Virus record (IMG/VR): IMGVR_UViG_3300034104_005687
Location: 124,001-188,000 of that record
Source: a virus
DNA: 64,000 bases
Direction: 5' to 3' (one strand)
Shown: piece by piece, positions 9,765 to 56,526 of the stretch
Numbering within the stretch: position 1 is the first letter of the stretch
How the letters are laid out: each line of letters starts with the position of its first letter
Program-made: the position numbers and the translations under genes
Notes under the pieces: generated by a model
The model's database searches: none
Told to the model about the DNA's origin: nothing
What the model saw: the letters and a program-made list of their open reading frames with translations, nothing else

Positions 9765-9932
9765 ATGTACAAACCAATCAACGAAAATTTAACAAACCCA
9801 CCGGTGATGAATCCACACAGTCCTGCCAGCAATGGCTACAAACAACAGCCTGTGGATATTCCTGGTGTACTGGATCAAACACGTCGTTTGTTTCAGCCAG
9901 TGATCGCTATTCCGCCTGAAAGCAACAAGTAA
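9765..9932 (+). CDS. Small virion-block protein, unknown
   Basis: A 55-residue ORF in a tight operon: it starts 4 bases after the previous stop, and its TAA overlaps the next ATG (TAATG). It is proline- and asparagine-rich (NPPVMNPHSP, VDIPGVLDQTRRLF) with no transmembrane segment. The start MYKPINEN contains an INE tripeptide that would fit the prohead protease rule, but this is weak. Function unknown. Confidence 0.55.
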   Translation: MYKPINENLTNPPVMNPHSPASNGYKQQPVDIPGVLDQTRRLFQPVIAIPPESNK

Positions 9933-13141: not shown

Positions 13142-13576
13142 ATGAAAAAACTACTACTCTCTCTACTACTGATTCCATGCTTGGTCATGGCACAAAAAAC
13201 ACCAAAAGGTGCAACCTATGACGCACAAATTGTGCGCATCAACGATGGCGACACTGTGGTAATTTCCGCACCATTCTTGCCTGCTCCGCTCAAGCCTGAA
13301 CTGGCTGTGCGAATCTTTGGTGTTGACACTCCTGAAAAAGGACATAGAGCACAATGTCCGCAAGAAAATGCCCGCGGTCTAGCAGCCACAGAGTTTACCA
13401 AAAATGCAATAGCAACCAGTCAACAACGACAAGTCACACTGTATGCCTGGGACAAGTTTGGTGGTCGTGTGCTGGGTGATATCATTCTAGATGGCCGTAG
13501 CCTGCGTCAAGGACTGATTGCCAATGGGTTTGCTCGTGAATACTACGGTGACGCCAAACAAAGCTGGTGTAATTAA
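13142..13576 (+). CDS. Secreted thermonuclease (SNase family)
   Basis: A 144-residue staphylococcal-nuclease-like enzyme with a Sec signal peptide (MKKLLLSLLLIPCLVMA, cleavage likely after Ala17). Family residues are present: Asp37, Arg57, Asp62-Thr-Pro-Glu65 and Arg109 in DKFGGRVLG, so it should be catalytic. The frame is open upstream to 13055, but the signal peptide fixes the start at 13142. It would cut DNA or RNA in the periplasm or outside the cell, possibly scavenging nucleotides or excluding competing DNA. No clear ribosome binding site. Confidence 0.85.
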   Translation: MKKLLLSLLLIPCLVMAQKTPKGATYDAQIVRINDGDTVVISAPFLPAPLKPELAVRIFGVDTPEKGHRAQCPQENARGLAATEFTKNAIATSQQRQVTLYAWDKFGGRVLGDIILDGRSLRQGLIANGFAREYYGDAKQSWCN

Positions 13577-13608: not shown

Positions 13609-14751
13609 ATGTCCAATTTCTTTTGCGCAGCCCCCTGGCGTGGCCTGCATATCAATCCCCGAGGCGATGTCAAAACCTGCTGTGCAGGCAATCCCAACAT
13701 GCTGGGAAATCTAAATCAACAAAGCATTGTTGAAATTCTCAACAGCAACTTGATGGCAGAAATACGCCAAAACTTAGCACAGGGGCAACCTCATGAATAT
13801 TGCTCTAACTGTGTTCGTGCTGAACGTTTTGGCGCCGATAGTGAACGTAAATGGCACAACGATGTCAATCCAGATTTTGATTATGCCACAGCTGGAGATC
13901 AATATCATTATCCTGTGATTGTTGATGTGCGATGGAATACAACCTGCAATCTGAGTTGTAACTATTGCGGCGAAGCATGCAGTAGCAAATGGGCCAGCAT
14001 CAAAGGAATACCATTCAAGTCAGGCGCCAGACCCTATTATGATCAAGTTTGTGATTTTATTGAGCAACATTACAATCACATACATGAAGTTGCGCTGGTC
14101 GGTGGCGAACCGTTGTTGTTGCCTGAAAACGAACGACTGCTGGATGTCATCCCCAAAGATGCCATTGTTACATTGATTACCAATCTCAACGTTGACTTTG
14201 AAAAAAACAAAATATTCCAAAAGCTTGCTGCTCGTAACCGAGTAGGGTGGTCAATGAGTTTTGATAACATTGGGCCCAGACTTGAATATGTTCGACATGG
14301 TGCAAGCTGGAACACAATCAAAAACAATCTTGCTGTGATCAAAGATTTGATGAAAACACAAGGTCAGTGGGGCGGAATTCACGCAGTGTACAACCTCTAC
14401 AGCGCCACACGTATTTGCGAACTGCGTGAATTTGCTGACAAAACAGGTACCACAGTGCTGTGGCAAAATCTGTTTCAACCCGATTATCTTGATCCGTTCT
14501 TGCATGGTCCAGAAGTAGCGCAAGCTGCCATTGCAGAAATTGAACGTTTTTACGCCATGGGAATAGCAACACCAGCTGAACGCATGTTCTTTGATCAAGC
14601 CTTGCAGAATTATCAAACAGTTAAAACAGCACACCCTGGGATTGAACGTAAATTTGCAAAGCACATTCAAGAAATTGAATCAACGTATCACCCAGACACA
14701 AAAGGAAAGTTTGCCACATTGTGGCCTGAACTAGCAAGTTTATGCAAATAA
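13609..14751 (+). CDS. Radical SAM protein with N-terminal twitch/SPASM-like domain (1)
   Basis: A 380-residue radical SAM enzyme. The [4Fe-4S]-SAM motif is C113-x3-C117-x2-C120 (CNLSCNYC), followed by GGEPLL near residue 165. Before the core lies an N-terminal auxiliary cluster region, FCAAPW...GDVKTCC (Cys6, 24, 25) plus YCSNC (Cys65, 68), the arrangement of twitch-domain radical SAM proteins, where the SPASM-like part precedes the barrel. The substrate is unknown; relatives modify peptides or small molecules. First gene of a late operon, with its 3' end overlapping the next start by 10 bases. Confidence 0.88.
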   Translation: MSNFFCAAPWRGLHINPRGDVKTCCAGNPNMLGNLNQQSIVEILNSNLMAEIRQNLAQGQPHEYCSNCVRAERFGADSERKWHNDVNPDFDYATAGDQYHYPVIVDVRWNTTCNLSCNYCGEACSSKWASIKGIPFKSGARPYYDQVCDFIEQHYNHIHEVALVGGEPLLLPENERLLDVIPKDAIVTLITNLNVDFEKNKIFQKLAARNRVGWSMSFDNIGPRLEYVRHGASWNTIKNNLAVIKDLMKTQGQWGGIHAVYNLYSATRICELREFADKTGTTVLWQNLFQPDYLDPFLHGPEVAQAAIAEIERFYAMGIATPAERMFFDQALQNYQTVKTAHPGIERKFAKHIQEIESTYHPDTKGKFATLWPELASLCK

Positions 14752-15890
14752 CACAAAGCCCTACTTTTTGTCCAGCACCCTGGACCAGTATCAACATAGA
14801 TCAAACAGGCTTAGTAATGCCATGTTTTCACACTGGCTATGAATTAGGTAATATCAAACGCATACCTATTCAACAAGTGTTAAAAGACAACCCGATTAAA
14901 GACATAAGACAGACTATGGCACGTGGTGAATGGCACAAAGCATGCGCCTGGTGTAAGAGGCTTGAAGAAACTACTGGATCCAGCGGAAGAACTGTGAGAA
15001 ATACAAACCCAGAGACATTGGCAGCTATTGATGCTGATATAGATTTTTTTAAGCTGGAGCAGTTGGTAGTCAATTGGAGTAATCTTTGCAATTTAACCTG
15101 TGTGTATTGCAACGATCACACGTCAACGGCTTGGCAAAGCATTAAAAAAATTCCCATCAATTATGTCAAAAACGAACACGACGATTTAATTGAGTTGGTC
15201 AAAACACAAGGTCATAACATTCAAGGATTGTCCCTGGGCGGTGGAGAGCCACTGCTGCAAAAAGGACTTGATGTATTTTTAAGTTACCTTAATCCTGCCA
15301 CAGTATCAGTAATGGTCACTACCAATCTCAGCATGGAAATTACAACCAATCCTATCTATCAAATTCTTAAAACATGGCCCAAGGTAGAATGGATGGTGAG
15401 CTTTGACAATGCCAACAAAGAAAAGTTTGAATATGTTAGAGATCGAGCAAATTGGGAACAGTTTGTAAAAAATTTGCGACAAATGAAACAAGATGGGCAG
15501 CAGGTAAGTGCACATCCTGCGTACAGTATCTATTGCGCATTAGATCTTGAAGAATACTATGATTTTTGTACAAGTGAAAATTTGAATATTTACTGGTGCG
15601 AACTCAATCATCCGATAGAATTGGACATACGGAGACATTCTCAAACATTGCGAGACTTGGCAGTCGGAGAAATCAATCGGGTGATAGATAAGTATGGCGA
15701 TAGAAACGGTTTGGCAATTGATGTGTTGAAAACTTACCGTAATACGTTACAAGACAATAGCTACCTCAAGTATCAAGAAAATTTTAAATCATCAAAAACG
15801 TTAGCATGGCACGTAGACATAGAAAACACTTTGAAAAAAACAAACAAGTTTGTTGACTTATGGCCAGCACTGGCAAAGGAAATACAATGA
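14742..15890 (+). CDS. Radical SAM protein with N-terminal twitch/SPASM-like domain (2)
   Basis: This 382-residue paralogue-like neighbour of the previous gene has N-terminal FCPAPW...VMPC (Cys10, 28) and CAWC (68, 71), then the core CNLTCVYC (Cys116, 120, 123), GGGEPLLQ and a TTNLS segment. The two proteins share overall layout but have diverged widely, suggesting successive or parallel steps. It is coupled upstream (10-base overlap) and downstream (ATGA overlap with the SGNH gene). Its codons become more AT-rich than those of the preceding gene. Confidence 0.88.
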   Translation: MQITQSPTFCPAPWTSINIDQTGLVMPCFHTGYELGNIKRIPIQQVLKDNPIKDIRQTMARGEWHKACAWCKRLEETTGSSGRTVRNTNPETLAAIDADIDFFKLEQLVVNWSNLCNLTCVYCNDHTSTAWQSIKKIPINYVKNEHDDLIELVKTQGHNIQGLSLGGGEPLLQKGLDVFLSYLNPATVSVMVTTNLSMEITTNPIYQILKTWPKVEWMVSFDNANKEKFEYVRDRANWEQFVKNLRQMKQDGQQVSAHPAYSIYCALDLEEYYDFCTSENLNIYWCELNHPIELDIRRHSQTLRDLAVGEINRVIDKYGDRNGLAIDVLKTYRNTLQDNSYLKYQENFKSSKTLAWHVDIENTLKKTNKFVDLWPALAKEIQ

Positions 15891-16660
15891 CACAATTCAA
15901 AAACACTCCTGTTCATTTTGGTAGCCATAATGCCAATGAAACGCTTGATTGGATGCCCACTGACACCAAAGAAAGTTACGAAAAACTAATTCAAGATCCA
16001 GACCATCGAGCTTATTTTGCCAAAATGGGATGGGATCGGCCAGGCGCTATCACATACCGGATCAACAGTCACGGATTCCGTGCTGACGAATTCGATGGCG
16101 GCCCATACATGGTTGCCTTGGGTTGTAGTTATACTGTGGGCATTGGTTTGCCCGACGAAACAACCTGGGCCAGACAAACTGCCACTGCATTGGGCATGAA
16201 ATGCGCCAACTTGTCATGGGGAGGGTATAGTGCTGATAGTTGTTTTCGATTGGCCGAATACTGGATTCCTGCACTAAAGCCTGACTATGTGTGCATGCTA
16301 GTACCGCCAAGTCATAGAGTCGAACTGTTGCTTGATAACCAGGACCCGCTACTGGGCGATCGTCAAGTAATGGCAGAAGTGTTTATGCCAGAGAGTCAAA
16401 GCCAGTTGTTTAATCCAAACGATCGCTATCTCAAACATTGGTTTCTGAATGACGAGAATGCAATGATAAATCAACGCAAGAACGTTTTGGCGATACGACA
16501 ATTGTGTGCTGACTTAAATATTCCATGTACTATTTTGGATGCCGACCAGCATATGTGGTGGAGCCGTGAAGAAATTGGTTATGCAAGAGATTATATGCAC
16601 GGTGGCCCAAAGATACACGATATACTGACCAAGAAATTTGTAGATGGTTATAAAAAGTAG
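15887..16660 (+). CDS. SGNH/GDSL-like hydrolase (1)
   Basis: A 257-residue protein. Residues 76-88 (VALGCSYTVGIGL) give the GDSL-type nucleophile block with Ser81, and a late DYMHGGPKIHD segment (residues ~235-246) could supply the Asp/His pair. Members of this fold are esterases or acyltransferases acting on sugars and lipids. Start chosen at the ATGA overlap (15887) with an AAAGGA site upstream; the longer frame from 15860 lies within the previous gene. Third gene of the radical SAM operon. Confidence 0.75.
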   Translation: MTQFKNTPVHFGSHNANETLDWMPTDTKESYEKLIQDPDHRAYFAKMGWDRPGAITYRINSHGFRADEFDGGPYMVALGCSYTVGIGLPDETTWARQTATALGMKCANLSWGGYSADSCFRLAEYWIPALKPDYVCMLVPPSHRVELLLDNQDPLLGDRQVMAEVFMPESQSQLFNPNDRYLKHWFLNDENAMINQRKNVLAIRQLCADLNIPCTILDADQHMWWSREEIGYARDYMHGGPKIHDILTKKFVDGYKK

Positions 16661-16676
16661 TTTAAAAACAGTGCAC

Positions 16677-16757
16677 ATGGACAATACCAAAATAAAATTC
16701 TTACTTTTCTTGACACAATCGGGCGCATTGTGGAATTGCAACCAGGATAGCAAATGA
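16677..16757 (+). CDS. Possible 26-residue leader peptide before gp17
   Basis: A short ORF in the only gap between the SGNH gene and the large terminase. It begins at ATG 16677, is hydrophobic in the middle (IKFLLFL), and ends with a TGA that overlaps the gp17 start as ATGA, the junction type used across this genome. There is no clear ribosome binding site, so it may be chance. Confidence 0.25.
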   Translation: MDNTKIKFLLFLTQSGALWNCNQDSK

Positions 16758-18343
16758 TTGGTCCAAAACTCAACACGCTTGACGCAATACTGGTCAAAGC
16801 ACCGCACCGTAGAGAAACCTATTCAGAATCTGAGCTGGAGCAGTTTGCTCGTTGTGCTGATCCTGTGACCGGTCCCATGTACTTCATGGACAACTTTTTT
16901 CATATTCAGCACCCTACCAAGGGAAAGATGCTGTATCACCCGTTTGATTATCAAAAAAAGCTGATTGAAAATTACCACACCAATCGTTTTAGTATCTCAT
17001 TGATGCCTCGACAAACTGGCAAAAGTACCAGTGCAGCAGGATACTTGTTGTGGTACGCTATGTTTGTACCCGACGCTACTATCCTAATTGCAGCGCACAA
17101 GTACCTGGGCGCACAGGAAATCATGCAACGTATAAGATATGCTTATGAGTTGTGCCCCAATCACATTCGTGCAGGTGCCACCAGCTACAACAAAGGCAGC
17201 TTGGAGTTTGACAACGGGTCACGTATTGTAAGCCAAACAACAACTGAAAACACTGGTCGAGGTATGAGTATTACCTTGCTGTATCTAGACGAGTTTGCGT
17301 TCGTGCGCCCCACTATTGCCAAAGAGTTTTGGACTTCAATTACACCCACATTGAGCACAGGTGGTAAAGCCATTATCACATCAACTCCCAACTCAGACGA
17401 AGATCAGTTTGCTTACATCTGGAAAGGTGCCAACAAAATCGAAGACGAGTTTGGTAACCCAAGGCCCAACGGACTGGGCATCAACGGATTCCGAGCTTTT
17501 CGTGCTTTTTGGCGTGAGCACCCGGACCGTGATGATGCATGGGCAGAAGAACAACGAGCACAGCTGGGCGAAGAACGTTTTCGTCGAGAAATGGATTGTG
17601 AATTTGTGCAGGATGAGGAAACTCTAATTAACCCACTTAAATTAATGGATTTGGCAGGAACAGATCCTATATACAAGACTGGACAAGTTCGTTGGTTTAA
17701 AAAGCCTGAGAAAGATAAAATCTATGTAATTGCATTAGATCCTAGCTTAGGCACCGGTGGAGACCCAGCGGCTATTCAGGTTTTCGAAGCTAACACCACA
17801 ATCCAGGTAGCCGAGTGGCGGCATAACAAAACTATAGTTCCTGAACAAGTTCGTATAATGGTTGACATATGTCGGCATATTAACGAAACGGTCACTGACT
17901 CAAAAAATATTTATTATTCAGTAGAAAATAACACCCTAGGAGAAGCTGCTCTTGTGTCCATTGAACATTACGGGGAAGAAAATATTCCTGGATATTTTTT
18001 AAGCGACAATTCTGTTGTTAACTCTAGTGGCCGAAGATATCGCAAAGGATTTAATACTACCAATAAAAGCAAGTTAGCAGCATGTAGCAAGTTTAAAACA
18101 TTAGTTGAGACTGGCAAGATGACTATTAACAGTGGATTACTAGTCAGTGAACTAAAGACCTTTGTGGCTAACGGCTCTGGTTATGCCGCCAAACCCGGCG
18201 AGACTGATGACTTAATTATGGGCTCGTTATTGGCAGTACGCATGTTGCAATTATTGCAAAGTTATCATAGTGAGCTAGATACTCAGATGCGAGATTTTGC
18301 TGATACGATGATAGAGCCGTTGCCGTTTATATTGATGCGCTAA
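16754..18343 (+). CDS. 17: Large terminase subunit gp17
   Basis: ATPase-nuclease motor that packages DNA into the prohead. Walker A is MPRQTGKST (84-92), Walker B LLYLDE with Asp179-Glu180, and the coupling motif TSTPN (209-213). The C-terminal nuclease domain has IALDPSLGTGGD with Asp329 and a later acidic ENNTLGE and DD pair. At 529 residues it is somewhat shorter than T4 gp17 (610). It is separated from its partner gp16 by ~10 kb of late genes, unlike T4. The TAA stop at 18341 doubles as the start of the next late promoter. Confidence 0.96.
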   Translation: MIGPKLNTLDAILVKAPHRRETYSESELEQFARCADPVTGPMYFMDNFFHIQHPTKGKMLYHPFDYQKKLIENYHTNRFSISLMPRQTGKSTSAAGYLLWYAMFVPDATILIAAHKYLGAQEIMQRIRYAYELCPNHIRAGATSYNKGSLEFDNGSRIVSQTTTENTGRGMSITLLYLDEFAFVRPTIAKEFWTSITPTLSTGGKAIITSTPNSDEDQFAYIWKGANKIEDEFGNPRPNGLGINGFRAFRAFWREHPDRDDAWAEEQRAQLGEERFRREMDCEFVQDEETLINPLKLMDLAGTDPIYKTGQVRWFKKPEKDKIYVIALDPSLGTGGDPAAIQVFEANTTIQVAEWRHNKTIVPEQVRIMVDICRHINETVTDSKNIYYSVENNTLGEAALVSIEHYGEENIPGYFLSDNSVVNSSGRRYRKGFNTTNKSKLAACSKFKTLVETGKMTINSGLLVSELKTFVANGSGYAAKPGETDDLIMGSLLAVRMLQLLQSYHSELDTQMRDFADTMIEPLPFILMR

Positions 18344-18346
18344 ATA
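18341..18346 (+). promoter_or_regulatory. Late promoter TAAATA overlapping gp17 stop codon
   Basis: The first three bases are the gp17 stop codon, and the gap to the next ATG (18354) is 7 bases. The transcript would start at or next to the start codon. Confidence 0.6.
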
Positions 18347-18353
18347 TACTACC

Positions 18354-20012
18354 ATGGCACAAGACATCAATATCAGCAAAGACCTTTATGACCTACTGGT
18401 CAGCAAAAACTTCGACCCCAACGTCAGTGACGAACAAGGACGAGAAACCACTCCTGATGAGGGGTCAGTATTCAAATTTGACTACATTGCCAGTTCTGGC
18501 AAGAACTACGGCACAGCAGTGATCTTGATTGGCGACGATCAAGACCTCATGCTGTTCTTTGGAGACAACCTGGGCAAAAGCATGGACGATCCCGAAGACA
18601 AAGACGAGTGGTTCCAGTTCTTGCAGCAAATGAGCAAGTTTTCTACACGTCATAACTTTCACACATTTACACCCAAAAATTTGAATGCCATCAAGCACAC
18701 CATGGCAGGCATGGCTGCCATCAAAGAAGGTTTGTTTGAAGGCTATTACGGCACACGCCGAGTCAGCTACATGGGCGAACGCACACAGGCTCGTCTGGTG
18801 ATCAATCACAATCGACTGCTGGGCGAAAACGACAAGCGTTATCGCTATGTGGAAAGTTTGTTTATTGAAACTGCTGATGGAGAGCGATATCGACTGCCAT
18901 TTACCAAATTGGTTGGTGGTCGTGCCATGCTGGAACATGTGCGTCAAGGAGGCAAGCCTTACGACATACGTGCTACACACATTGCAGAAACCATACAAGA
19001 AATGAGTGTGTTGGCTCGCTTCAACCGCGCCAGCCACAACAAAATGTTTGAAGGTCAAACACAACAACTGGTCGAAGCTGCTCGTGAATACTATCACAAC
19101 CTGCAGAATAACCTAAAGCACATATCCACTGCTCGCGGTTATCAGACTTATTTTGAATCTTGGACACCGGCTGATGTTGGCGCCCAAGAAGCTTTGGTTG
19201 AAGATCTCAAGACCATGTTCATTGAACAAACATTGGACACTAGAATCGAAGCAGCACTGCCTACCCTGGCAAAAATACAAGGAAACACCATGAAAGAAGC
19301 AGATCAATTTGAATCCTGGGCCAACAACTTGGTCGAAGGTACTTGGGCACTGCCCGAAACTCCCGAAGCCAAAGACACACTGTACAGTTTGTTGAATCAA
19401 GAACTACCTGTTGGTCCTGATGCCGCCAATGCAAAAGAGCAACTGTACGACATTCTGGGCGATGATCAACTGTTTGATCGACTGAGTGATCTGGCAGACC
19501 GCGATGCCAATGCTGATGCTCGTCCTGTGATCATTGCCAGAATGAAAGAAATGGGCATGGAAGTACCCGGTGTCAAGGCCGAGCCCGAAGTCAACGAAGC
19601 TGATAATTTGGCCACGTTCGAAGCTGGATGTGACATGGACGAAAGCATGGGCGGTACAGTGGCTGGTGCTGTTGCTCCAATGGAAGAAGGCGGTGAAAGA
19701 GACAAATACTACTATCAGCGCAACAACATCTGGAGAGTCATGGACGGTGACGAACTAGTACACGAATATACGCCTGACCGATATGAAGTTGTTGGCGCCA
19801 AAAAGCTATTGGCTCAATTTGACGACGAAGGCTACGATGTCACACACGTTATAAGCCCAATGGGAACTGTTACATATTTGTATGGCAAACCAGAAGATGA
19901 CATGGACGAAGGCAAGAATGATGACCCCATGAACTACAATGCCGCAATTACCAGCAGCTACTACGAGAGCGACGAATTGGCAAGAATAAAATCACTGGCT
20001 TTGCTCAAATGA
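18354..20012 (+). CDS. Large late protein, probably virion-associated, unknown
   Basis: A 552-residue acidic protein. The N-terminal ~280 residues look globular (VFKFDYIASSGKNYG, LFFGDNLGKSMDD, RYRYVESLFIETADGERYRLP), a helical middle follows, then an acidic linker (VPGVKAEPEVNEADNL) and a C-terminal small domain (WRVMDGDELVHEYTP ... VTYLYGKPED) with a tail ending LARIKSLALLK. No enzyme motif is seen. The late promoter, position after gp17 and upstream of a terminator suggest a head or ejected protein; that is inference. Confidence 0.75.
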   Translation: MAQDINISKDLYDLLVSKNFDPNVSDEQGRETTPDEGSVFKFDYIASSGKNYGTAVILIGDDQDLMLFFGDNLGKSMDDPEDKDEWFQFLQQMSKFSTRHNFHTFTPKNLNAIKHTMAGMAAIKEGLFEGYYGTRRVSYMGERTQARLVINHNRLLGENDKRYRYVESLFIETADGERYRLPFTKLVGGRAMLEHVRQGGKPYDIRATHIAETIQEMSVLARFNRASHNKMFEGQTQQLVEAAREYYHNLQNNLKHISTARGYQTYFESWTPADVGAQEALVEDLKTMFIEQTLDTRIEAALPTLAKIQGNTMKEADQFESWANNLVEGTWALPETPEAKDTLYSLLNQELPVGPDAANAKEQLYDILGDDQLFDRLSDLADRDANADARPVIIARMKEMGMEVPGVKAEPEVNEADNLATFEAGCDMDESMGGTVAGAVAPMEEGGERDKYYYQRNNIWRVMDGDELVHEYTPDRYEVVGAKKLLAQFDDEGYDVTHVISPMGTVTYLYGKPEDDMDEGKNDDPMNYNAAITSSYYESDELARIKSLALLK

Positions 20013-20020
20013 TATAAATA
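20013..20020 (+). promoter_or_regulatory. TATAAATA element downstream of the 552-residue gene
   Basis: A perfect late-type element follows the TGA stop at 20010-20012. It would transcribe into the terminator and gp32, so it could give late gp32 expression, or be a fortuitous match. Confidence 0.45.
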
Positions 20021-20023
20021 ACA

Positions 20024-20052
20024 TTGACACAGCAGACAAAAGCGCATATACT
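20024..20052 (+). promoter_or_regulatory. Sigma70-type promoter of gp32
   Basis: TTGACA (20024-20029), a 17-base spacer and TATACT (20047-20052). The left arm of the terminator hairpin lies inside the spacer, so transcripts initiated here start in the hairpin loop and escape the terminator. Confidence 0.7.
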
Positions 20053-20073
20053 ACTACTGTGTTTGCGCTTTTT
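20038..20073 (+). terminator. Rho-independent terminator upstream of gp32
   Basis: Stem AAAAGCGCA (20038-20046) with TGCGCTTTT (20064-20072), 17-base loop, ending in a T run. It stops read-through from the late gene upstream while the gp32 promoter overlaps it. Confidence 0.75.
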
Positions 20074-20152
20074 CTTTTGTGGCACAGGCAACACAAGATC
20101 TAAGCAATTAGATAGGCAACACACATAGGCAACTTTACAAGGAGAAATTACT

Positions 20153-21139
20153 ATGGCATCATTAGCAGAAATCAGAGCACGACTACAGGCAGCAGAAAAC
20201 AACAAAGGTGGGCAATCCACCGGGGGCGGAGACAAGTCAATCTACCCGCATTGGAACATGGAAGAAGGCCAAAGTGCCACACTGCGTTTTCTTCCCGACG
20301 GCAACAGCAAAAACACTTTCTTTTGGATTGAACGAGCAATGATTCGTTTGCCTTTCAACGGCGTCAAAGGAGAAATGGACTCAAAGCAAGTCATGGTTCA
20401 AGTGCCATGCGTGGAAATGTGGAACGAGGCCTGCCCAATCTTGGCAGAAGTTCGCACATGGTTCAAAGACAAGAGTCTCGAAGACATGGGTCGCAAGTAC
20501 TGGAAAAAGCGTAGCTACATTTTCCAAGGTTTTGTGCGTGAAAACCCCATTGGCGATGACAAGACGCCAGACAATCCAATTCGCAAGTTCATCATTGGTC
20601 CACAATTGTTTGCCACTATCAAGTCGGCATTGATGGATCCTGAACTGGAAGAATTGCCAACTGACATGATGCGTGGCCTGGATTTCCGTATCAGCAAGAC
20701 CTCCAAAGGCGGCTATGCAGACTATTCAACCAGCAAGTGGGCTCGCAAAGAGTCAGCCCTGACCGAAGCAGAACAATCTGCTGTGGACACACACGGCTTG
20801 TTTGATTTGAGCACATTCTTGCCCAAGAAGCCAACTGATGTTGAGCTCAGGGTAATGAAGGAAATGTTTGAAGCATCAGTTGACGGTCAGCCTTATGACA
20901 CTGAGCGTTGGGGTCAGTACTTCCGCCCAGCCGGAGTTGGCGCGCCTCAAGGTGGCAGCACAGACGAAGCCGCAGCACCTGCACCTATGGCACGCTCAAC
21001 AGCACCTGCGGTGGCAGCAGAAGATCCTCCTTTTGACATGGAAGACGCACCTGCAGCAGCAGCGCCTGTTGTAAAGCCCGCAGGCGGGAATCAAAAGGCC
21101 GAAGACATTTTGGCCATGATACGCAGCCGTCAGAAGTAA
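20153..21139 (+). CDS. 32: Single-stranded DNA-binding protein gp32
   Basis: Coats ssDNA during replication, recombination and repair and recruits partners through its acidic tail. The 328-residue sequence has the family layout: basic N-terminal B domain (SLAEIRARLQAAENNK), OB-fold core (SATLRFLPDG, FFWIERAMIRLPF, KKRSYIFQGFV), then an Ala/Pro-rich linker, an acidic PPFDMEDAP stretch and the typical ending AEDILAMIRSRQ. Zinc ligands of T4 gp32 are not obvious; only Cys residues in PCVEMWNEACP are seen. GGAG ribosome binding site. Confidence 0.94.
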   Translation: MASLAEIRARLQAAENNKGGQSTGGGDKSIYPHWNMEEGQSATLRFLPDGNSKNTFFWIERAMIRLPFNGVKGEMDSKQVMVQVPCVEMWNEACPILAEVRTWFKDKSLEDMGRKYWKKRSYIFQGFVRENPIGDDKTPDNPIRKFIIGPQLFATIKSALMDPELEELPTDMMRGLDFRISKTSKGGYADYSTSKWARKESALTEAEQSAVDTHGLFDLSTFLPKKPTDVELRVMKEMFEASVDGQPYDTERWGQYFRPAGVGAPQGGSTDEAAAPAPMARSTAPAVAAEDPPFDMEDAPAAAAPVVKPAGGNQKAEDILAMIRSRQK

Positions 21140-21147
21140 TAATTATC

Positions 21148-21702
21148 ATGGCTATCTTCTTGAACTACTATCCCTGTAGTTACGGAGATAGCCTGGTTGC
21201 AATGTTTCGTGGTCGTTTTGTTCAACGAAAAAATGACATCATTGAGATGTCAAAGTACGATTATTTTAAGTTCTTGGATTTTTATAATGCTAGCAATTTA
21301 CAAAAAAAAGAATTGTTGTCAAATCTAAAACCAACAAAAATAGTATCGTGTCACAGACAATATCAATTTGATTTTGGCATAGAACACAAAGTAATCTCAG
21401 TAGTTCTAGATGATCTATCTTGGATTGGTAAACGAGTTTGCGATATTCATATAAGTAGACTCGGTAAACAATTAAGCAACAAAAAATTGTTGCAATTACA
21501 ATCTAAAATATCCATTGACCAGATAGTAACATATGAATACCAAAATTGGGCAAAAAATAATATACTAGATGCAGATATCAAGTTGCCGTTCTCGATGTTG
21601 CAAGATGATCAATTTATGACAACTTTTTGTCAAGATCACAATCTAAAATACAATCGGACATGCATTGATGATATCCTAAACAACGTTAAAAAATACACAT
21701 GA
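21148..21702 (+). CDS. Unknown protein, AT-rich insert gene 1
   Basis: The 184-residue protein lies 8 bases after gp32. The N-terminus NYYPCSYGDSLVAMF faintly recalls the start of sulfotransferase-like P-loop proteins, but I see no supporting motif. It is Lys/Asn/Ile/Tyr-rich and clearly more AT-rich than gp32 and UvsX. It overlaps the next gene by 4 bases (ATGA). The three genes 21148-22837 look like one acquired cassette inside the recombination block. Confidence 0.65.
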   Translation: MAIFLNYYPCSYGDSLVAMFRGRFVQRKNDIIEMSKYDYFKFLDFYNASNLQKKELLSNLKPTKIVSCHRQYQFDFGIEHKVISVVLDDLSWIGKRVCDIHISRLGKQLSNKKLLQLQSKISIDQIVTYEYQNWAKNNILDADIKLPFSMLQDDQFMTTFCQDHNLKYNRTCIDDILNNVKKYT

Positions 21703-22214
21703 AACGATATCACGACTGGCACAAATTACAACAACAAAATCAAGGATGGAATTGCATTGAGCCAGACGAAATTGTGGCCAACCGATTAAAATCAACTAAC
21801 TGGACTTTGGATTTATCGTATTGTCATCGAAGTTTAAAAGAAATGCTGATGCCTTGCACTACTGCACATCAATACTCTGATTTTTTTGTTTTGACCGACA
21901 TTGAATTAGGAAAGCTACCATTAGAAACATTCTTCAAGCTAGTAAGAAAAAAATACAACGATAGTAAATTTGGTGGTTATATTGCAGTACTAAGTTACTA
22001 TTTGAATACAAATGTTGTCAGACACGATTTACAAGGAAGTTACAGTGAAAATATTGCACAGGTCTTTTCTGAAAATCTGAGCTATGTGAATCGACTTGAA
22101 AATTTAAGTTCAGTGACTGACTTCCCGATCAACAAGACAAAAAACAATGTATTGATTGAAGGCTCAAATTTTATATTTGTGCATCCAAACATAAGGTATT
22201 TTTTATGGAAGTAG
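21699..22214 (+). CDS. Unknown protein, AT-rich insert gene 2
   Basis: A 171-residue protein with Trp/Asn/Leu-rich sequence (WHKLQQQNQGWNCIEPDE, LDLSYCHRSLKEMLMP, FGGYIAVLSYYLN), overlapped on both sides (ATGA upstream, 10 bases downstream). No recognised domain. The segment ending FIFVHPNIRYFLWK is followed immediately by the next start. Confidence 0.6.
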   Translation: MKRYHDWHKLQQQNQGWNCIEPDEIVANRLKSTNWTLDLSYCHRSLKEMLMPCTTAHQYSDFFVLTDIELGKLPLETFFKLVRKKYNDSKFGGYIAVLSYYLNTNVVRHDLQGSYSENIAQVFSENLSYVNRLENLSSVTDFPINKTKNNVLIEGSNFIFVHPNIRYFLWK

Positions 22215-22837
22215 CCAAGGATTCTATAGACAGCGCCGGCAATCCAACGATAGTGGCAAAATACAAAATGTGGAAACAACCTCTATATAAGTGGGACGAA
22301 TTTGTTGTAAATCGGCACAAAACAAAAAAATACATTGATCCGTGGTCAAAAAAAATTATAGAAGAAGCAGACGGCAATATTGTTGTCTATAATTCCGGAG
22401 GTATGTTTTTCAAAGACTTCAACCCAAACATAACAGTGATTGAACATCAGCCATGTCCTGTTAATGTGCCTGGTATGCAGTATTTTGATGATAGTGTAAA
22501 CATAGAGAACTCGGTTGATAGTTTGATTATGATTAATCCAATTGCATTGAAATACCATCATAGCTTGTCAGATGCGTTGAGTACGCCTGGAATATCTAGG
22601 GCAGGATACAAACCGTCTTTGATAAACTGGCTCAAGCCGTCGGCTAAAATATTTTTGAGTTTCTCAGATTGGCATTTTTACTACGATAGACTCAAATTTA
22701 CTGTAGATGATTTTTTAACCTTGCAATTATTAAACTTAGAAAATATTGGTATCTCGTGTGTCTATAAATCAGTAGAGAAGTCAACAGTTGATCCTATCAA
22801 TGGAAATGTAAAATTAATATTGACATATCAGGTATAA
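22205..22837 (+). CDS. Unknown protein, AT-rich insert gene 3
   Basis: A 210-residue protein. The alternation of strands and helices (NIVVYNSGGMFF, NITVIEHQPCP, SLIMINPIALKYH, AKIFLSFSDWHFYYDR) and a C-terminal KLILTYQV strand recall a Rossmann-like methyltransferase fold, but no SAM-binding glycine motif is present. Function unknown. Last gene before the UvsX promoter. Confidence 0.6.
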   Translation: MEVAKDSIDSAGNPTIVAKYKMWKQPLYKWDEFVVNRHKTKKYIDPWSKKIIEEADGNIVVYNSGGMFFKDFNPNITVIEHQPCPVNVPGMQYFDDSVNIENSVDSLIMINPIALKYHHSLSDALSTPGISRAGYKPSLINWLKPSAKIFLSFSDWHFYYDRLKFTVDDFLTLQLLNLENIGISCVYKSVEKSTVDPINGNVKLILTYQV

Positions 22838-22871
22838 TTTTAATTTTTGGAAATATATTTTGTGCTATCTC

Positions 22872-22900
22872 TTGTGCCGGCATAAAAAATATCATATAAT
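22872..22900 (+). promoter_or_regulatory. Sigma70-type promoter of uvsX
   Basis: TATAAT at 22895-22900 with a weak -35 TTGTGC (22872-22877) at 17-base spacing. The ATG at 22924 is preceded by AAAGGAAAA. Confidence 0.5.
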
Positions 22901-22923
22901 AGAAACTTCAAAGGAAAAACAAC

Positions 22924-23979
22924 ATGGGTAAACCATTCGACATTTCAAAATTCCGTAAGGAAATTACTAAAAGCATTGATGGCCTCAGTATTGGCTTCAA
23001 TGATCCCACAGACTGGATCTCCACAGGCAACTATGCCTTGAACTACTTGATCTCAGGAGACTTCAATCGTGGCATTCCCTTGGGCAAGGTCACTGTGTTT
23101 GCTGGCGACTCGGGTGCAGGCAAAAGCTACATTTGTTCAGGCAACATTGTTAAACACGCACAAGAACAGGGTATCTTTGTGGTGCTGATTGATAGTGAAA
23201 ACGCTCTTGACGAAGACTGGCTCAAAGCCCTGGGTGTAGACACATCAGAGAGCAAATTGCTCAAACTCAGCATGGCCATGATCGACGATGTGGCCAAGAC
23301 TATTTCCACATTCATGAGCGACTACAAGGGCTTACCCGACGGCGAGCGTCCCAAGGTCTTGTTTGTGATTGATAGCTTGGGCATGTTGTTGACTCCCACA
23401 GATGTTAATCAGTTCGAAGCTGGTGAAATGAAAGGTGATCTGGGTCGCAAGCCCAAGGCACTGACTGCATTGGTTCGTAACTGTGTCAACATGTTTGGTA
23501 GCTACAATGTAGGCCTGGTATGTACCAACCACACATACGCAAGTCAAGACATGTTTGATCCCGATGACAAAATCTCTGGTGGTCAAGGTTTCATCTATGC
23601 GTCCAGTATTGTGGTTGCTATGAAAAAGATGAAACTCAAAGAGGACGAGGACGGCAACAAGGTATCAGAAGTCAACGGTATTCGTGCAGGCTGCAAAGTC
23701 ATGAAAACACGCTATGCCAAACCGTTTGAAGGCGTGCAAGTCAAGATTCCTTACACAACAGGCATGAGTCCGTATTCAGGACTTACAGATTTGATTGAGA
23801 AAAAGAATCTACTGAAAAAAGAAGGCAACAGCCTGGTGTTTACCACAAGCCAGGGCGAGATCATCAAGAAGTTCCGCAAGGGCTGGGAACGCAACGATGA
23901 CGGTTGCCTTGACACAGTGATGACCGACTTTGGCAATCAGAAAGAAGCATCCCCGGCAGTTGAGGACGATGTAGAATGA
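22924..23979 (+). CDS. uvsX: RecA-like recombinase UvsX
   Basis: Strand-exchange recombinase for recombination-dependent replication and repair. A 351-residue RecA-fold protein with Walker A GDSGAGKS (61-68), Walker B VLFVIDS with Asp150, and the ssDNA loop region DLGRKPKALTALVRN. T4 UvsX is 391 residues. It follows gp32 after a three-gene insert and has its own promoter; its stop overlaps the next start (ATGA), so downstream accessory genes are co-transcribed with it. Confidence 0.95.
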   Translation: MGKPFDISKFRKEITKSIDGLSIGFNDPTDWISTGNYALNYLISGDFNRGIPLGKVTVFAGDSGAGKSYICSGNIVKHAQEQGIFVVLIDSENALDEDWLKALGVDTSESKLLKLSMAMIDDVAKTISTFMSDYKGLPDGERPKVLFVIDSLGMLLTPTDVNQFEAGEMKGDLGRKPKALTALVRNCVNMFGSYNVGLVCTNHTYASQDMFDPDDKISGGQGFIYASSIVVAMKKMKLKEDEDGNKVSEVNGIRAGCKVMKTRYAKPFEGVQVKIPYTTGMSPYSGLTDLIEKKNLLKKEGNSLVFTTSQGEIIKKFRKGWERNDDGCLDTVMTDFGNQKEASPAVEDDVE

Positions 23980-24509
23980 ATCGATTGAGTCTTTTGTTTA
24001 CGGCTACACAATGCAACGGGTGGCCTAAATTAAAATTCTCAATTGACGATGATTTACTGCAAGACTATGAATTTAACAGTGGATCAGCACTGATTACATT
24101 GCCAGTAGATCTGCTAGATGGAGAGCATCAACTGGACATAGAGTTGTATGGCAAATCATCATCGAATACCATGGTAGTCAATGACGTCATTGTTGAAGAT
24201 CAACTAGCAACATTGGAATCTATTTTTATCGATGATGTTCAGGTACCTGATTTTGTAAAGTACAAAGGAATTTATACAGCACGAAATCTTGTTATGCCGC
24301 AGGCGTTGACATGGGGTATACCAGGAGTGTGGTCCTTGAAATTTAATTATCCAATTATTGATTGGATTCTTGAATGCAAAATTAACGATTATTATGAGTT
24401 CGATAAGTACGACGAATGGTCTACGTCAGTCTATCATCCTAAAAAGACTCAGGCATTAATGGACGGATTCCGTGAGCTTGAAGACCTATTAGCCAATGTC
24501 AAAATTTGA
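23976..24509 (+). CDS. Unknown protein, possible beta-sandwich
   Basis: A 177-residue protein coupled to uvsX by an ATGA overlap and overlapping the radical SAM gene by 14 bases. The N-terminal ~85 residues alternate short strands (LSLLFTATQ, LKFSIDDDLLQ, ALITLPVDLLDGEHQLDIELYG), like a carbohydrate-binding beta-sandwich; the rest is aromatic-rich. A sugar- or protein-binding accessory to the downstream enzymes is conceivable, not shown. Confidence 0.65.
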   Translation: MNRLSLLFTATQCNGWPKLKFSIDDDLLQDYEFNSGSALITLPVDLLDGEHQLDIELYGKSSSNTMVVNDVIVEDQLATLESIFIDDVQVPDFVKYKGIYTARNLVMPQALTWGIPGVWSLKFNYPIIDWILECKINDYYEFDKYDEWSTSVYHPKKTQALMDGFRELEDLLANVKI

Positions 24510-26013
24510 AAAAGCTTCGTTGATTGCGTCGGGTCTGTTGCCGATTAACAAACCGCCTCCTGCACTTGCATTTTTGTCAAGTATGTGCGAGGTCAATCAG
24601 TTGAGCCACGAATTGTTTGACTTGAACATACATATCAAGAACAGCATTGGGGAAGAATTATGGAATCGCGCATACACTATCTTTGCTTCGTTGGATTATA
24701 TTGCTGACAAAGAAGTACTGGATCCTGTTGTTGAATCTATTGATACAGCAGTTGATCTAATAATAGCACAATCCAGTGATTTGATATTGATGTCAGTTTT
24801 CAGCTATCAGCAAATTGCAATCACCAAATTGTTTTTGATATCGCTTCGCAAGAAAACCAATACCACAGTGATTATCGGCGGTCCAGGTGTTACATACGAA
24901 ATGCCCAGTGGAGTAACAGCCGGTAAACAGATGCTGGATGCAGGTCTAACTGACTACTATGTACTAGGAGAAGGCGAGCATGTGCTCGACCAATTTCTCA
25001 AAGGTTGTCTTGAGCTTGGCATCAACTACTCGGGTGCACCTGAAACTTGGGCCATTCAAATTGACAACTTAGACGATTGTGTTTTTCCCACGTACAAGAA
25101 TATTAATTTTGATAACTATTCTCCTGGTATTGACTTAGACCATACCATCAGTATAACATGTAGTCGAGGGTGTGTTCGTAGATGCACATTTTGTGATGTC
25201 GGGCACCTTTGGAAGAAATTTCGATTTCGAAGTGCCGACAATGTTATTTCAGAAATGCGAAAACACATCAACGAAACTGGAATCAAACAGTTTTTTTTCA
25301 CAGACAGTTTAATCAACGGTCCGTTGAAACAATTCACAGAATTGGTTTCGCAATTGGCCTTGTTGAGAAAAACTGATCCAGTTTTTGCAAGTGTCAGTTA
25401 TGTTGGTCAGTTTATTATACGCAGTCAGGCGCATCACAAAGAAGAAATGTACAAGTTGATGCACGAATCAGGATGTCAGTATATTGTGATAGGCATTGAA
25501 AGCGGCAGTGAACAAGTAAGAAATCACATGGGCAAGAAATTTTCCAATACAGATATAGACTATCATTTGTCAATGTGTTCAAAGTACAAAATTAAAAATT
25601 CATTGTTGATGTTTACTGGATATCCAACTGAAACTCTGCAAGACCATCACGACACAATGACCATGCTTCGTCAATATCAAAAGTACTTGATGGATGAAAC
25701 AGTGATTGCATTGACCTTGCATCAACCATTTGTGTTGCTGAAAAACACACCAATATCAGACATGAAGCACGAAATAGGAATTGTCAACGAGCAAGACAAT
25801 ACATATTTTTTTGAAGTACAGTCAAACCCAGATTTTACTGTCAAGGAAAAATTTAGGCGGTATCTTGAGGTAGTTAAACTTTCTATAGATCTAAAATACC
25901 CCGGATCTTGGGCAGATTTAGCAAGCCTTAGATCACACATACACGCACTTACACAATTTATTGATCAAGGCAATAAAGACACGGTAAGTATCAACCAAGG
26001 AGTTAAAACATGA
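24496..26013 (+). CDS. Radical SAM protein with B12-binding-like N-terminal domain
   Basis: A 505-residue enzyme of the B12-binding radical SAM layout. Residues ~80-170 form a Rossmann-like half (SSDLILMSVFSYQQ, TVIIGGPGVTYE, YYVLGEGEHVL) as in cobalamin-binding domains, but the DxHxxG ligand motif is absent, so cobalamin may bind base-off or not at all. The core motif is C226-x3-C230-x2-C233 (CVRRCTFC), then FFFTDSLING and IGIESGSEQVRNHMGK. Substrate unknown; the family does methylations and skeletal rearrangements. More AT-rich than uvsX. Confidence 0.87.
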   Translation: MSKFEKASLIASGLLPINKPPPALAFLSSMCEVNQLSHELFDLNIHIKNSIGEELWNRAYTIFASLDYIADKEVLDPVVESIDTAVDLIIAQSSDLILMSVFSYQQIAITKLFLISLRKKTNTTVIIGGPGVTYEMPSGVTAGKQMLDAGLTDYYVLGEGEHVLDQFLKGCLELGINYSGAPETWAIQIDNLDDCVFPTYKNINFDNYSPGIDLDHTISITCSRGCVRRCTFCDVGHLWKKFRFRSADNVISEMRKHINETGIKQFFFTDSLINGPLKQFTELVSQLALLRKTDPVFASVSYVGQFIIRSQAHHKEEMYKLMHESGCQYIVIGIESGSEQVRNHMGKKFSNTDIDYHLSMCSKYKIKNSLLMFTGYPTETLQDHHDTMTMLRQYQKYLMDETVIALTLHQPFVLLKNTPISDMKHEIGIVNEQDNTYFFEVQSNPDFTVKEKFRRYLEVVKLSIDLKYPGSWADLASLRSHIHALTQFIDQGNKDTVSINQGVKT

Positions 26014-26267
26014 GCGAATTGATAGCATCAGAAATTTGGGGAGAACTCAAACGTTATGTCAACACTGTTGACCGGGCAGAAGCAGCCGAAACTGTGGTAC
26101 AAATTTTAATGGACAATGATTCAGACATTGACGCCATTAAAAATGCTTTTAAGAGTGATTTAGATATCAAACGTGCTCTTACTGCATATCTTGACAACGA
26201 CAATGATTATGCTGATGACGAGGATGACGAAGACAACATAGACGAAGAGTTGGACTGGGAAGATTAA
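26010..26267 (+). CDS. Small acidic protein conserved in T4-like marine phages
   Basis: An 85-residue protein with an N-terminal helical part (IWGELKRYVNTVDRAEAAETVVQ) and a strongly acidic tail (DDEDDEDNIDEELDWED). Similar small acidic proteins occur near uvsX/uvsY-type genes in T4-like marine phages as I recall. It could mimic DNA or act as an adaptor. ATGA overlap upstream, 1-base overlap downstream, Shine-Dalgarno AAGGAG at 25998. Confidence 0.65.
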   Translation: MSELIASEIWGELKRYVNTVDRAEAAETVVQILMDNDSDIDAIKNAFKSDLDIKRALTAYLDNDNDYADDEDDEDNIDEELDWED

Positions 26268-27520
26268 TGCCCGACAAATATTTTCCAATCCGTACTGCCA
26301 CTGCTTGCCAACTCAAATGGAACTGGAGCACGCTGTATCTTTATTCAGGAGAAACAGCATCGTGTCATCGTACTGGATGGGGAAATATTGATCCAGAGAA
26401 CTTTGATCAGTTTCACAACACTGAAAAAAAGTTACAAGAACGTCGAGACATGTTGGACGGAAAATGGCCTGAACACAGTTGTGATTATTGCCGAAAAATT
26501 GAAACAGCAGGCGGGTTCAGCGATCGAATGTTGCACTTGACCATGCCAAATCAGAGTCCAATAGAATTGGAAACAGATCCAACCGCAATCAATGTTGTGC
26601 CCACAATACTGGAAGTTTTTTTTAACAATACTTGTAATTTGGCCTGTCTGTATTGCCTGCCTATTTTGAGTTCTAAGATAAACCAAGAAAATATTGCATT
26701 TGGAAAGTTTGACAACAATGGAGTAGTAATTGAGCCTGCAGAAATCAGCAACACTCCTTTGTTGATTGACAAATTCTGGAACTGGATGAGATCTAATTCT
26801 CTTGGGCTAAAACGATTCAATGTGTTGGGTGGAGAACCTTTTTATCAAACAGAATTTTATCAACTGTTGGATTATTTTGAAGAGACTGCACATCCAGACC
26901 TGGAACTAGGTATTGTTACAAATCTAGCAATTAGAACAGAAAAGCTCAATGAGATTTGCGAGAAATTAAAAAAACTTTTGATAAATCGAAAACTCAAAAG
27001 GGTCGACATAACATGCAGCATAGACTGTTGGGGAGCCGAACAAGAATATGTTCGTTATGGGTTGGATCTAGCACAGTGGCAACAAAACTTTGAATTTTTA
27101 CTGAGCAAAAAATGGATAAAACTAAACATCAATCAAACAATCAGTGTGCTAACAATCAAGACCATGCCCGAGCTGCTGAGCAGATTAGAACAGTGGAGAA
27201 AAATTAGACCAGTTGGACATTTCTTTTCAACTGTTTCTCCTCAGCCAACGTACATGGTGCCTGCAATCACAGGAAAAGATGTGTTTAAACAAGATTTTGA
27301 AAAAATCATTGCTGCCATCCCAAATCACACCGATGAACAAAAACTTGCAATTGAATACATGAAAGGTATTCAAACTGAACTTGAAAAATCAACAGTTGAT
27401 TTGACAGAACTTGGTAAACTAAAAACATTTCTCAACGAAAAAGATCGACGTCGAGGAACCAGCTGGGAAACCACCTTTCCTTGGCTAATTGAAATTTTTG
27501 ATCAGAACCTAACAAAATAA
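26267..27520 (+). CDS. Radical SAM protein with N-terminal twitch-like domain (3)
   Basis: A 417-residue enzyme of the same broad class as 13609 and 14742. Auxiliary cysteines are Cys14, Cys33, Cys72 and Cys75 (CDYC) in the N-terminal region, and the core motif is CNLACLYC (Cys123, 127, 130), followed by NVLGGEPFYQ and TNLAI. The N-terminus differs (no FCxxPW; instead CQLKWNW...TASCHRTGW). Substrate unknown. It is in the uvsX-uvsY operon, expressed earlier than the 13.6 kb pair if promoters are read correctly. Confidence 0.85.
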   Translation: MPDKYFPIRTATACQLKWNWSTLYLYSGETASCHRTGWGNIDPENFDQFHNTEKKLQERRDMLDGKWPEHSCDYCRKIETAGGFSDRMLHLTMPNQSPIELETDPTAINVVPTILEVFFNNTCNLACLYCLPILSSKINQENIAFGKFDNNGVVIEPAEISNTPLLIDKFWNWMRSNSLGLKRFNVLGGEPFYQTEFYQLLDYFEETAHPDLELGIVTNLAIRTEKLNEICEKLKKLLINRKLKRVDITCSIDCWGAEQEYVRYGLDLAQWQQNFEFLLSKKWIKLNINQTISVLTIKTMPELLSRLEQWRKIRPVGHFFSTVSPQPTYMVPAITGKDVFKQDFEKIIAAIPNHTDEQKLAIEYMKGIQTELEKSTVDLTELGKLKTFLNEKDRRRGTSWETTFPWLIEIFDQNLTK

Positions 27521-28008: not shown

Positions 28009-28764
28009 ATGAAAATTGTACTTGTAACCGGCGGCTTTGACCCCATACATTCTGGACATCTTGCTTACTTTCAGTCAGCAAAAAAACTAGGCGATCGACT
28101 TGTAGTTGGCCTTAACTCAGACGAGTGGCTTGCTCGTAAAAAGGGTCGACCGTTTATGCCCATGAGCGAACGCTTTGCATTGGTTAGTGCATTAAGCATA
28201 GTAGATGAAGTTGTTGTTTATAACGATGATGATGGGTCAAGTTGTGATGCTATTCGACTGCTGAAAACACGTTATCCTAACGATCAAATTGTGTTTGCCA
28301 ACGGTGGTGATCGCACTAAAGACAACATTCCTGAAATGGTATTTGATGATGTGGAGTTTGTGTTTGGCGTAGGCGGCGAGAACAAAATGAACAGTAGTAG
28401 TTGGATCTTGGAAGACTGGAAAAAGCCCAAGACTAGCCGCGCCTGGGGATACTATCGTGTGTTGCATGAAGTAGGTGCCAATACCAAACTCAAAGAACTC
28501 ACAGTGAATCCCAAGACCTGTTTGAGCATGCAACGTCATGATCAACGTGCAGAGTTTTGGTTTGTGGCCGAAGGCGAAGCTGCTGTTTACACGTTGGATA
28601 ATTCTAGTGATCACGATCTTGTTGGACATTTTGGAGTGCATGAGCATATCTGGATCAAAAAGAATCAGTGGCACATGCTGTGCAACGAAACTGATCAGCC
28701 GCTCAAATTGATTGAAATTCAGTTTGGTGAAAACTGTGTAGAAGAAGATATCGAACGCCGATGA
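28009..28764 (+). CDS. Nucleotidyltransferase-cupin fusion
   Basis: A 251-residue two-domain protein. Residues 1-150 are a cytidylyltransferase-like (RfaE/HldE C-domain, TagD type) nucleotidyltransferase with GGFDPIHSGH (HxGH at 14-17), LVVGLNSDEWL and SERFALVSAL. Residues ~160-245 are a cupin related to mannose-6-phosphate isomerase-type barrels (SMQRHDQRAEFWFVAEGEA). Such fusions occur in T4-like marine phages. A role in activating or isomerising a sugar phosphate for the downstream glycosyltransferases is likely. Coupled downstream by an ATGA overlap. Confidence 0.85.
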   Translation: MKIVLVTGGFDPIHSGHLAYFQSAKKLGDRLVVGLNSDEWLARKKGRPFMPMSERFALVSALSIVDEVVVYNDDDGSSCDAIRLLKTRYPNDQIVFANGGDRTKDNIPEMVFDDVEFVFGVGGENKMNSSSWILEDWKKPKTSRAWGYYRVLHEVGANTKLKELTVNPKTCLSMQRHDQRAEFWFVAEGEAAVYTLDNSSDHDLVGHFGVHEHIWIKKNQWHMLCNETDQPLKLIEIQFGENCVEEDIERR

Positions 28765-35215: not shown

Positions 35216-35240
35216 CAAATTAATCCCAATTTGCTATAAT
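35212..35240 (+). promoter_or_regulatory. Sigma70 promoter P1 of the small-gene array
   Basis: TTGACA (35212-35217), 17 bases, TATAAT (35235-35240). The spacer ends TCCCAATTTGC, shared with P3-P5. A GGAGCCACC ribosome binding site follows. Confidence 0.85.
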
Positions 35241-35266
35241 AACAACATAGCAACAAAGGAGCCACC

Positions 35267-35470: not shown

Positions 35471-35476
35471 GCAAAA

Positions 35477-35498
35477 AGTGTGGCTTTTTTGCCACACT
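35477..35498 (+). terminator. Hairpin after small early gene
   Basis: AGTGTGGC (35477-35484) pairs with GCCACACT (35491-35498) around a T6 loop. There is no T run after the stem, so it may be an mRNA-stabilising or processing hairpin instead of a true terminator. Confidence 0.4.
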
Positions 35499-35506
35499 GT
35501 GCCCAG

Positions 35507-35535: not shown

Positions 35536-35564
35536 ATAGCATAGAGAAACAAAAAGGAGCCAAA

Positions 35565-56525: not shown

Positions 56526-56526
56526 T

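Follow-up and report, generated by a model that had tools for sequence, protein, structure and literature searches.

The DNA analysed here is a stretch of 64,000 nucleotides, referred to as the window, which covers positions 124001-188000 of the 349,369-bp virus record IMGVR_UViG_3300034104_005687. It contains four genes for enzymes of the radical S-adenosylmethionine (rSAM) superfamily, all on the plus strand. A preliminary description had placed such genes at 13609, 14742, 24496 and 26267, and open reading frames (ORFs) that match rSAM profiles start exactly at these positions. Three of them encode enzymes with an N-terminal twitch domain: T1 (13609-14751, 380 aa), T2 (14742-15890, 382 aa) and T3 (26267-27520, 417 aa). 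The fourth (24496-26013, 505 aa) encodes a B12-like rSAM enzyme and lies in the gene run that contains uvsX. A number of four is too low for the phage as a whole. Combining the profiles PF04055 and NF033640 we found 16 rSAM genes in the record (9 twitch, 4 B12-like and 3 classical), such that the listed genes represent a quarter of the set.

Each of the four proteins carries one CxxxCxxC motif, as had been described; shuffling the residues of the same protein recreated the motif in 0.2-1.0% of the cases. With the general rSAM profile PF04055 (cut-off 29.5 bits), T1, T2 and the 24496 protein scored 30.7, 42.0 and 70.8 bits, respectively. T3 stayed below this cut-off with 28.1 bits and is assigned to the superfamily by NF033640 instead, the NCBIfam family of "twitch domain-containing radical SAM" proteins with a curated cut-off of 170 bits. 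In this family T1, T2 and T3 reached 212.6, 195.1 and 242.9 bits, and six more proteins of the record exceeded the cut-off as well; the 24496 protein was not among the matches. No match above the cut-off was obtained in 14 control cellular genomes. The auxiliary-cluster cysteines that had been noticed at the N-termini were borne out by an alignment of 55 twitch proteins, in which C6, C65 and C68 (T1 numbering) were invariant and C24/25 was nearly so. The NF033640 family, in which the auxiliary Fe-S domain (twitch/SPASM-like) is N-terminal, has the same N-terminal cysteine cluster together with the CxxxCxxC core; its name is silent on the substrate, and in the literature searched we found no characterised member.

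The 24496 protein resembles B12-binding rSAM enzymes. Its earlier classification as "B12-domain type" holds as a similarity only, because it lacks a DxHxxG motif and a B12-binding Pfam hit. The best NCBIfam match was PhpK, a B12-binding rSAM of the P-methyltransferase type, with 108 bits against a cut-off of 600. The flanking GGE motif that had been attributed to it is absent, and GGPG is found at residue 128 instead.

The phage is a member of a clade of jumbo myoviruses that are uncultured, with Pseudomonas phage PA5oct, Agrobacterium phage Atu_ph07 and other jumbo myoviruses as distant relatives. As clade marker we used the gene of the terminase large subunit (terL, 16754-18343, plus strand), for which PA5oct provided the best match among isolates with 52% amino acid identity; many uncultured IMG/VR contigs were much closer (73-88%). 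The high rSAM number is a property of this whole clade: five near-complete sister records of jumbo phages (315-355 kb, freshwater-type) hold 14-21 rSAM genes each. For 13 isolates the number ranged from 0 to 6. PF04055 matches in the related isolates amounted to 0 in PA5oct, 4 in Phosso, 4 in Atu_ph07, 0 in Vibrio 2.275.O, 1 in GAP32 and 0 in XaC1. T4, phiKZ, P-SSM2, S-SSM7, HTVC008M and nt-1 had 0-2 rSAM genes each, and K566 had 6. Since equally large or larger isolates hold 0-4, genome size alone does not explain the rSAM number. All sister records come from IMG/VR, as contigs that lack a completeness estimate, such that absences from them are weaker evidence than presences.

At the margin of these counts stands a QueE-like protein (record 319325-320170), a weak 17th candidate with 18.7 bits, i.e. 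under the Pfam cut-off. It has an unusual CX3CX4C-like motif and its gene adjoins that of a B12-like rSAM. An extremely rSAM-dense distant contig (G017, IMGVR_UViG_3300046368_000725, 61.6 kb) showed 19 PF04055 matches and also carries a tryptophan halogenase gene (34471-35886; PF04820, 222.8 bits), a nitroreductase gene and glycosyltransferase-like genes.

Five of the twitch genes of the record form an array at 21.6-31.8 kb, whose positions we call slots A-E. All five slots were found in the same order in six out of six near-complete records, with 44-79% identity to the copies of this record; between different slots the identity was 21-32% only. A tree was built from 76 twitch proteins. Among its labelled rows, the members of each slot, and likewise those of T1 and of T3, came out as a single clade (support at least 100/93), and many further rSAM proteins had long branches that belonged to no shared group. 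Because the slots are separate clades whose members are closer to their orthologues, the array paralogues split before the phages diverged and were kept as distinct enzymes. With the best-scoring array enzyme, tblastn against phage records gave six weak matches only, and with the T1 and 24496 proteins, each used singly, it gave no match in INPHARED. Cellular genomes scanned with one array enzyme contained no relative, such that bacterial gene context could not be used, and the nine twitch paralogues diverged too much for their alignment to serve in scanning contigs.

Together with the array, T1 and T3 make up a core set of seven genes that is co-inherited across the sister genomes. T3 is near-core, with orthologues in four of the five sister genomes (42-61% identity) that form a single clade with 100/100 support. 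T1 is a near-core gene of the whole clade and is located shortly upstream of the terminase gene; of the sisters, G001 lacks it and G005 has a diverged copy (35%). At least 137 T1 loci were found in IMG/VR, the best 80 of which had 74-82% identity. The median nonsynonymous divergence (dN) from the window copy was 0.18 for T1 and 0.181 for terL, with a ratio to synonymous divergence (omega) of ~0.08 for both, of which dN is the more reliable to compare, since synonymous sites are near saturation. This shows that T1 is under constraint like the adjacent terminase. T2 and 24496 are accessory genes. An orthologue of T2 was found in one of the five sister genomes (G004, 48%), better ones with 61-78% identity being present in some fragments (e.g. 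L048, L054, L057 and L067); 24496 likewise had one orthologue, in G001 (66%).

The clade furthermore carries genes for iron-sulphur (Fe-S) cluster assembly. The window contains genes for an IscU/NifU-type Fe-S scaffold (56494-56919, plus strand; PF01592, 183.3 bits) and for an A-type Fe-S carrier of the IscA/ErpA family (56903-57226, plus strand; PF01521, 55.8 bits). IscU was found in eight out of eight clade records, each of which holds two copies of the A-type carrier; both were absent from all six rSAM-poor relatives. As one clade is set here against its relatives, this is a single evolutionary contrast and not a statistical correlation. The iscU and iscA genes of G001 and G002 have an rSAM gene between them.

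A gene for an Fe/Mn superoxide dismutase (record 241841-242718) neighbours that of the second A-type carrier, and the two genes are adjacent in 8/8 clade records. We dropped the dismutase as a part of the Fe-S system for lack of specificity, because it is also present in two relatives that have no rSAM genes. An AhpC-type peroxiredoxin with an AhpD-like protein (carboxymuconolactone decarboxylase family) close by is encoded at record 333238-335780, pointing to peroxide defence in the phage. At the right end of the record (~336-345 kb), genes for a TctC solute receptor, a Gram-negative porin and PstS-like proteins have a betaproteobacterial look; they are either phage cargo or a host-derived assembly end.

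Sugar-related genes are found near T3 and the array. Downstream of T3, on the plus strand, follow an HldE-like cytidylyltransferase fused to a mannose-6-phosphate-isomerase-type cupin (28009-28764; PF01467, 58.3 bits, and PF01050, 72 bits), a GT8-type glycosyltransferase (28761-29444; PF01501, 32.8 bits, cut-off 24.3) and, further on, a GT25-type glycosyltransferase (31206-31967; PF01755, 61.2 bits). The array is preceded by genes of conserved proteins, one of which (F2) weakly matches the GT-A glycosyltransferase glycogenin (E 3e-4), and followed by a NodU-type carbamoyltransferase gene in all six genomes. Within its array region the present record has a gene for an NAD-dependent epimerase, a second epimerase gene and a DegT aminotransferase gene are found 11-20 kb away, and the array of G005 additionally holds a GHMP kinase and a GDP-mannose dehydratase gene. 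Tail-fibre-like genes flank the array, including that of G017. The array is thus bordered by glycosyltransferase-type and tail-fibre-like genes in six genomes, as in a host-recognition cluster of T4-like phages, the fibre genes being called by sequence inspection. Pfam gave no hits for the array neighbours F1, F2 and F5, nor for the amidinotransferase-like F7. No PDB match of use was obtained for F1 or F3; the predicted structure of F3 was poor (predicted local distance difference test score, pLDDT, of 67), such that its fold search was meaningless.

A comparable arrangement occurs in the isolated Vibrio phage K566 (OZ196521.1). Four of its five twitch rSAM genes lie in a row around two glycosyltransferase genes at 161548-168284, one of the GT8 type above the cut-off and one with a weak GT4 match. 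K566, an independent lineage whose twitch enzymes are distant from those of the clade, is the strongest independent support for an association of the twitch enzymes with sugar genes.

To characterise the fold we used an AlphaFold2 model of T1, which had a pLDDT of 92. Its Foldseek matches in the PDB comprised anSME, SkfB, SuiB, MoaA, viperin and others at template modelling (TM) scores of 0.34-0.43, which reflect mainly the shared rSAM barrel. Against predicted viral proteins the TM score reached 0.96 for rSAM proteins of uncultured phages and ~0.6 for proteins of KVP40 and phi-pp2. The T1 arrangement is thus common in phages and absent from solved structures. Like T1, the SPASM/twitch enzymes anSME, SkfB and SuiB combine an rSAM barrel with an auxiliary Fe-S domain; their whole-chain TM score is only ~0.4, and the auxiliary domain is C-terminal in them and N-terminal in the T1-type enzymes. 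Likeness of fold cannot choose between a peptide and a sugar as substrate.

Enzyme family, number, conserved order, purifying selection, the Fe-S genes and the sugar and tail-fibre neighbours are established. The explanation we favour, to which we give about even confidence, is that the rSAM enzymes form a co-inherited tailoring system of a glycan or host-recognition cluster with a dedicated Fe-S supply, for which we infer substrate, reaction and target. Most likely the enzymes decorate a phage-made sugar structure or a phage protein. The five-enzyme array, T1 and T3 would be the core of the system, around which accessory rSAM enzymes such as T2 and 24496 vary, and the phage would supply part of the Fe-S machinery as IscU and two A-type carriers. 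Each enzyme is expected to cleave S-adenosylmethionine at its CxxxCxxC cluster, yielding a 5'-deoxyadenosyl radical. With the auxiliary N-terminal cluster it could then dehydrogenate, epimerise or deoxygenate a sugar or glycan in one step, and these substrates would be built by the surrounding glycosyltransferases, epimerases and the carbamoyltransferase. The product may decorate virion adhesins or the host surface, within the host-recognition cluster. Of the dedicated chemistry proposed in the preliminary description, the co-inherited core with its dedicated Fe-S supply stands; the reaction is a conjecture of ours.

Several observations weigh against this explanation. Several of the neighbours called glycosyltransferases have no Pfam hit. 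In a record-wide circular-shift test, 9 of the 16 rSAM genes were located near glycosyltransferase-like or SGNH-like genes, compared to 3.4 expected (fraction 0.03); counted by locus, the test gave 5/9 compared to 2.4 expected (fraction 0.06), and 2/9 for glycosyltransferase-like genes alone (fraction 0.43). Around the main array co-occurrence with sugar genes is hence clear, over the whole genome it is modest, and we regard the association as suggestive and array-driven, because it is weak by locus and not significant for glycosyltransferase-like genes alone. K566, with its five twitch enzymes, has no A-type carriers, nor does nt-1. Finally, the nearest solved folds to T1 include the peptide-modifying SPASM enzymes anSME, SkfB and SuiB, ahead of sugar enzymes. 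This last point, together with the position of T1 among virion genes, makes a peptide or protein substrate the main rival: the twitch enzymes would introduce cross-links, epimers or dehydrogenations into tail fibres or small structural proteins, with T1 acting on a virion protein. We consider this possible, though not probable. It fits with a T1 gene that is placed in a run of virion genes and matches terL approximately in conservation, with top structural matches that modify peptides or proteins, and with adhesin and tail-fibre-like genes flanking T1 and the array. On the other hand, these PDB matches reflect mainly the barrel, and no family of maturases for ribosomally synthesised and post-translationally modified peptides (RiPPs, SPASM type) came near its cut-off, with 34.7 bits against 650 for WgkB and 36.8 against 625 for StsB. 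Most array genes overlap or directly adjoin each other, such that precursor peptides would find no space there; ORFs were called down to 40-45 aa. An 85-aa acidic conserved protein encoded between uvsX and T3 (26010-26267, plus strand; in 26/80 terL loci) was rejected as T3 precursor peptide, since its gene persists where T3 is absent, e.g. in L047.

Other explanations appear less plausible to different degrees. That the enzymes make a diffusible small molecule in a natural-product-like island, with tryptophan halogenase, carbamoyltransferase and a possible amidinotransferase as further tailoring enzymes, is improbable in our view. Halogenase and nitroreductase genes in the rSAM-dense G017 and the carbamoyltransferase and DegT aminotransferase genes of the record itself speak for it. 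Yet ordinary glycan loci contain the same tailoring enzymes, even G017 has tail-fibre genes on the flank of its array, and in the partly annotated gene set we saw no non-ribosomal peptide synthetase, polyketide synthase or RiPP precursor. Alternatively, the rSAM genes could be unrelated passengers whose number results from general gene capture by large genomes, with IscU and IscA serving Fe-S homeostasis of the host. The patchy T2 and 24496, the many further rSAM proteins on long branches without a shared group, and the four genes each in the larger-genome relatives Phosso and Atu_ph07 would agree with this. Tested by orthology and tree, scattered occurrence holds for T2 and 24496 but fails for the array, T1 and T3, which are co-inherited with fixed order and strong constraint. 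Passengers are thus refuted for the seven core genes, and as a general account, given the 0-4 rSAM genes of equally large or larger isolates and the presence of iscU and iscA throughout the clade with none in rSAM-poor relatives, they are quite unlikely. A role in DNA or tRNA hypermodification is the least credible alternative and seems highly improbable. T4-like phages use sugar-type DNA modifications, and the record holds the weak QueE-like rSAM at 319325; however, in the loci read the twitch genes showed no connection with genes for DNA modification, and viperin and QueE family scores were far under the cut-offs (27.0, 35.9 and 25.0 bits for the three twitch proteins of the window against 180 for viperin, NF038283). 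tRNA had been named as a possible substrate; a search of the window yielded no tRNA gene, and nothing points there.

T4-like phages rich in rSAM genes were already known (PMC5332604, PMC7029224). The 183-kb marine T4-like environmental genome TARA_ERS488813_N000010 carries 12 rSAM genes and an A-type carrier, which Nishimura et al. 2017 read as Fe-S cluster supply (PMC5332604). Compared by description, it and the present clade are alike in that a single uncultured T4-like phage combines many rSAM genes with an A-type carrier; the clade differs in its genomes of 315-355 kb with 14-21 rSAM genes, the conserved and ordered five-gene array and the presence of IscU in all records. In pelagimyophages and cyanomyophages, the host-recognition cluster is an island that holds rSAM cassettes along with tail fibres and glycosyltransferases, the cassettes distinguishing the pelagimyophage clusters (2020, PMC7029224). 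Unlike this hypervariable cluster, the array described here keeps content and order down to 44% orthologue identity. The isolated T4-like Vibrio phages K566, nt-1 and KVP40/phi-pp2 also possess twitch-type rSAM enzymes, with ~21-24% identity and in far smaller number. New in the present clade are the larger rSAM number, the conserved ordered array of ancient distinct paralogues, a near-core T1 beside the terminase, and clade-wide IscU with two A-type carriers.

Regarding transcription of the genes in the window, T1 and T2 had been considered late-promoter driven. The exact T4-type sequence TATAAATA occurs on the plus strand of the window only at 764 and 20013, and a search for it found no late promoter directly upstream of 13609. 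The sequence thus lends no support to late promoters of their own, and T1 and T2 could at most lie inside a long late transcript. The assignment of 24496 and T3 to a uvsX operon is supported by the tightly packed or overlapping genes across 22924-26267.

Among the direct neighbours of T1, a SNase-domain nuclease gene (13187-13576, plus strand; PF00565, 39.5 bits) is located directly upstream; such a gene is present upstream of T1 in 60/80 loci. An SGNH/GDSL-like protein is encoded at 15860-16660 (plus strand; by inspection the start may be 15890). It is recognised by its GCSYT motif alone, Pfam giving no hit, and its family adjoins T1 on the downstream side in 55/80 loci. Further members with GCSYT-type motifs form an expanded set with weak or no Pfam support, which besides 15860 includes genes at 40638 and 42941 of the window and at 66933, 121152, 122603, 296239, 318627 and 321063 of the record. 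A 55-aa peptide (window 9765-9932) belongs to a family found 2.8 kb upstream of T1 in 46/80 loci and is possibly a small virion protein or a modification substrate. Repeated N-termini of the type MRAxEFI (window 10261 and 10629, record 294594) recall the T4 capsid-targeting sequence.

The two kinds of substrate could also be combined: T1 would modify a virion protein during morphogenesis and the array would build an unusual adhesin sugar, such that radical chemistry with its own Fe-S supply would be constitutive in virion assembly. We consider this unlikely but, if true, a virus clade would own an rSAM maturation system. Enzymes of this superfamily are oxygen-sensitive and costly. The clade nonetheless keeps 14-21 of them, seven of fixed identity and in partly fixed order, together with Fe-S assembly genes. 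We know of no substrate for the twitch family. Viral rSAM genes, a curiosity among auxiliary metabolic genes, would thus become a conserved system of the virus with a findable substrate. K566, a tractable experimental model, and related Vibrio phages allow bench tests of the question.

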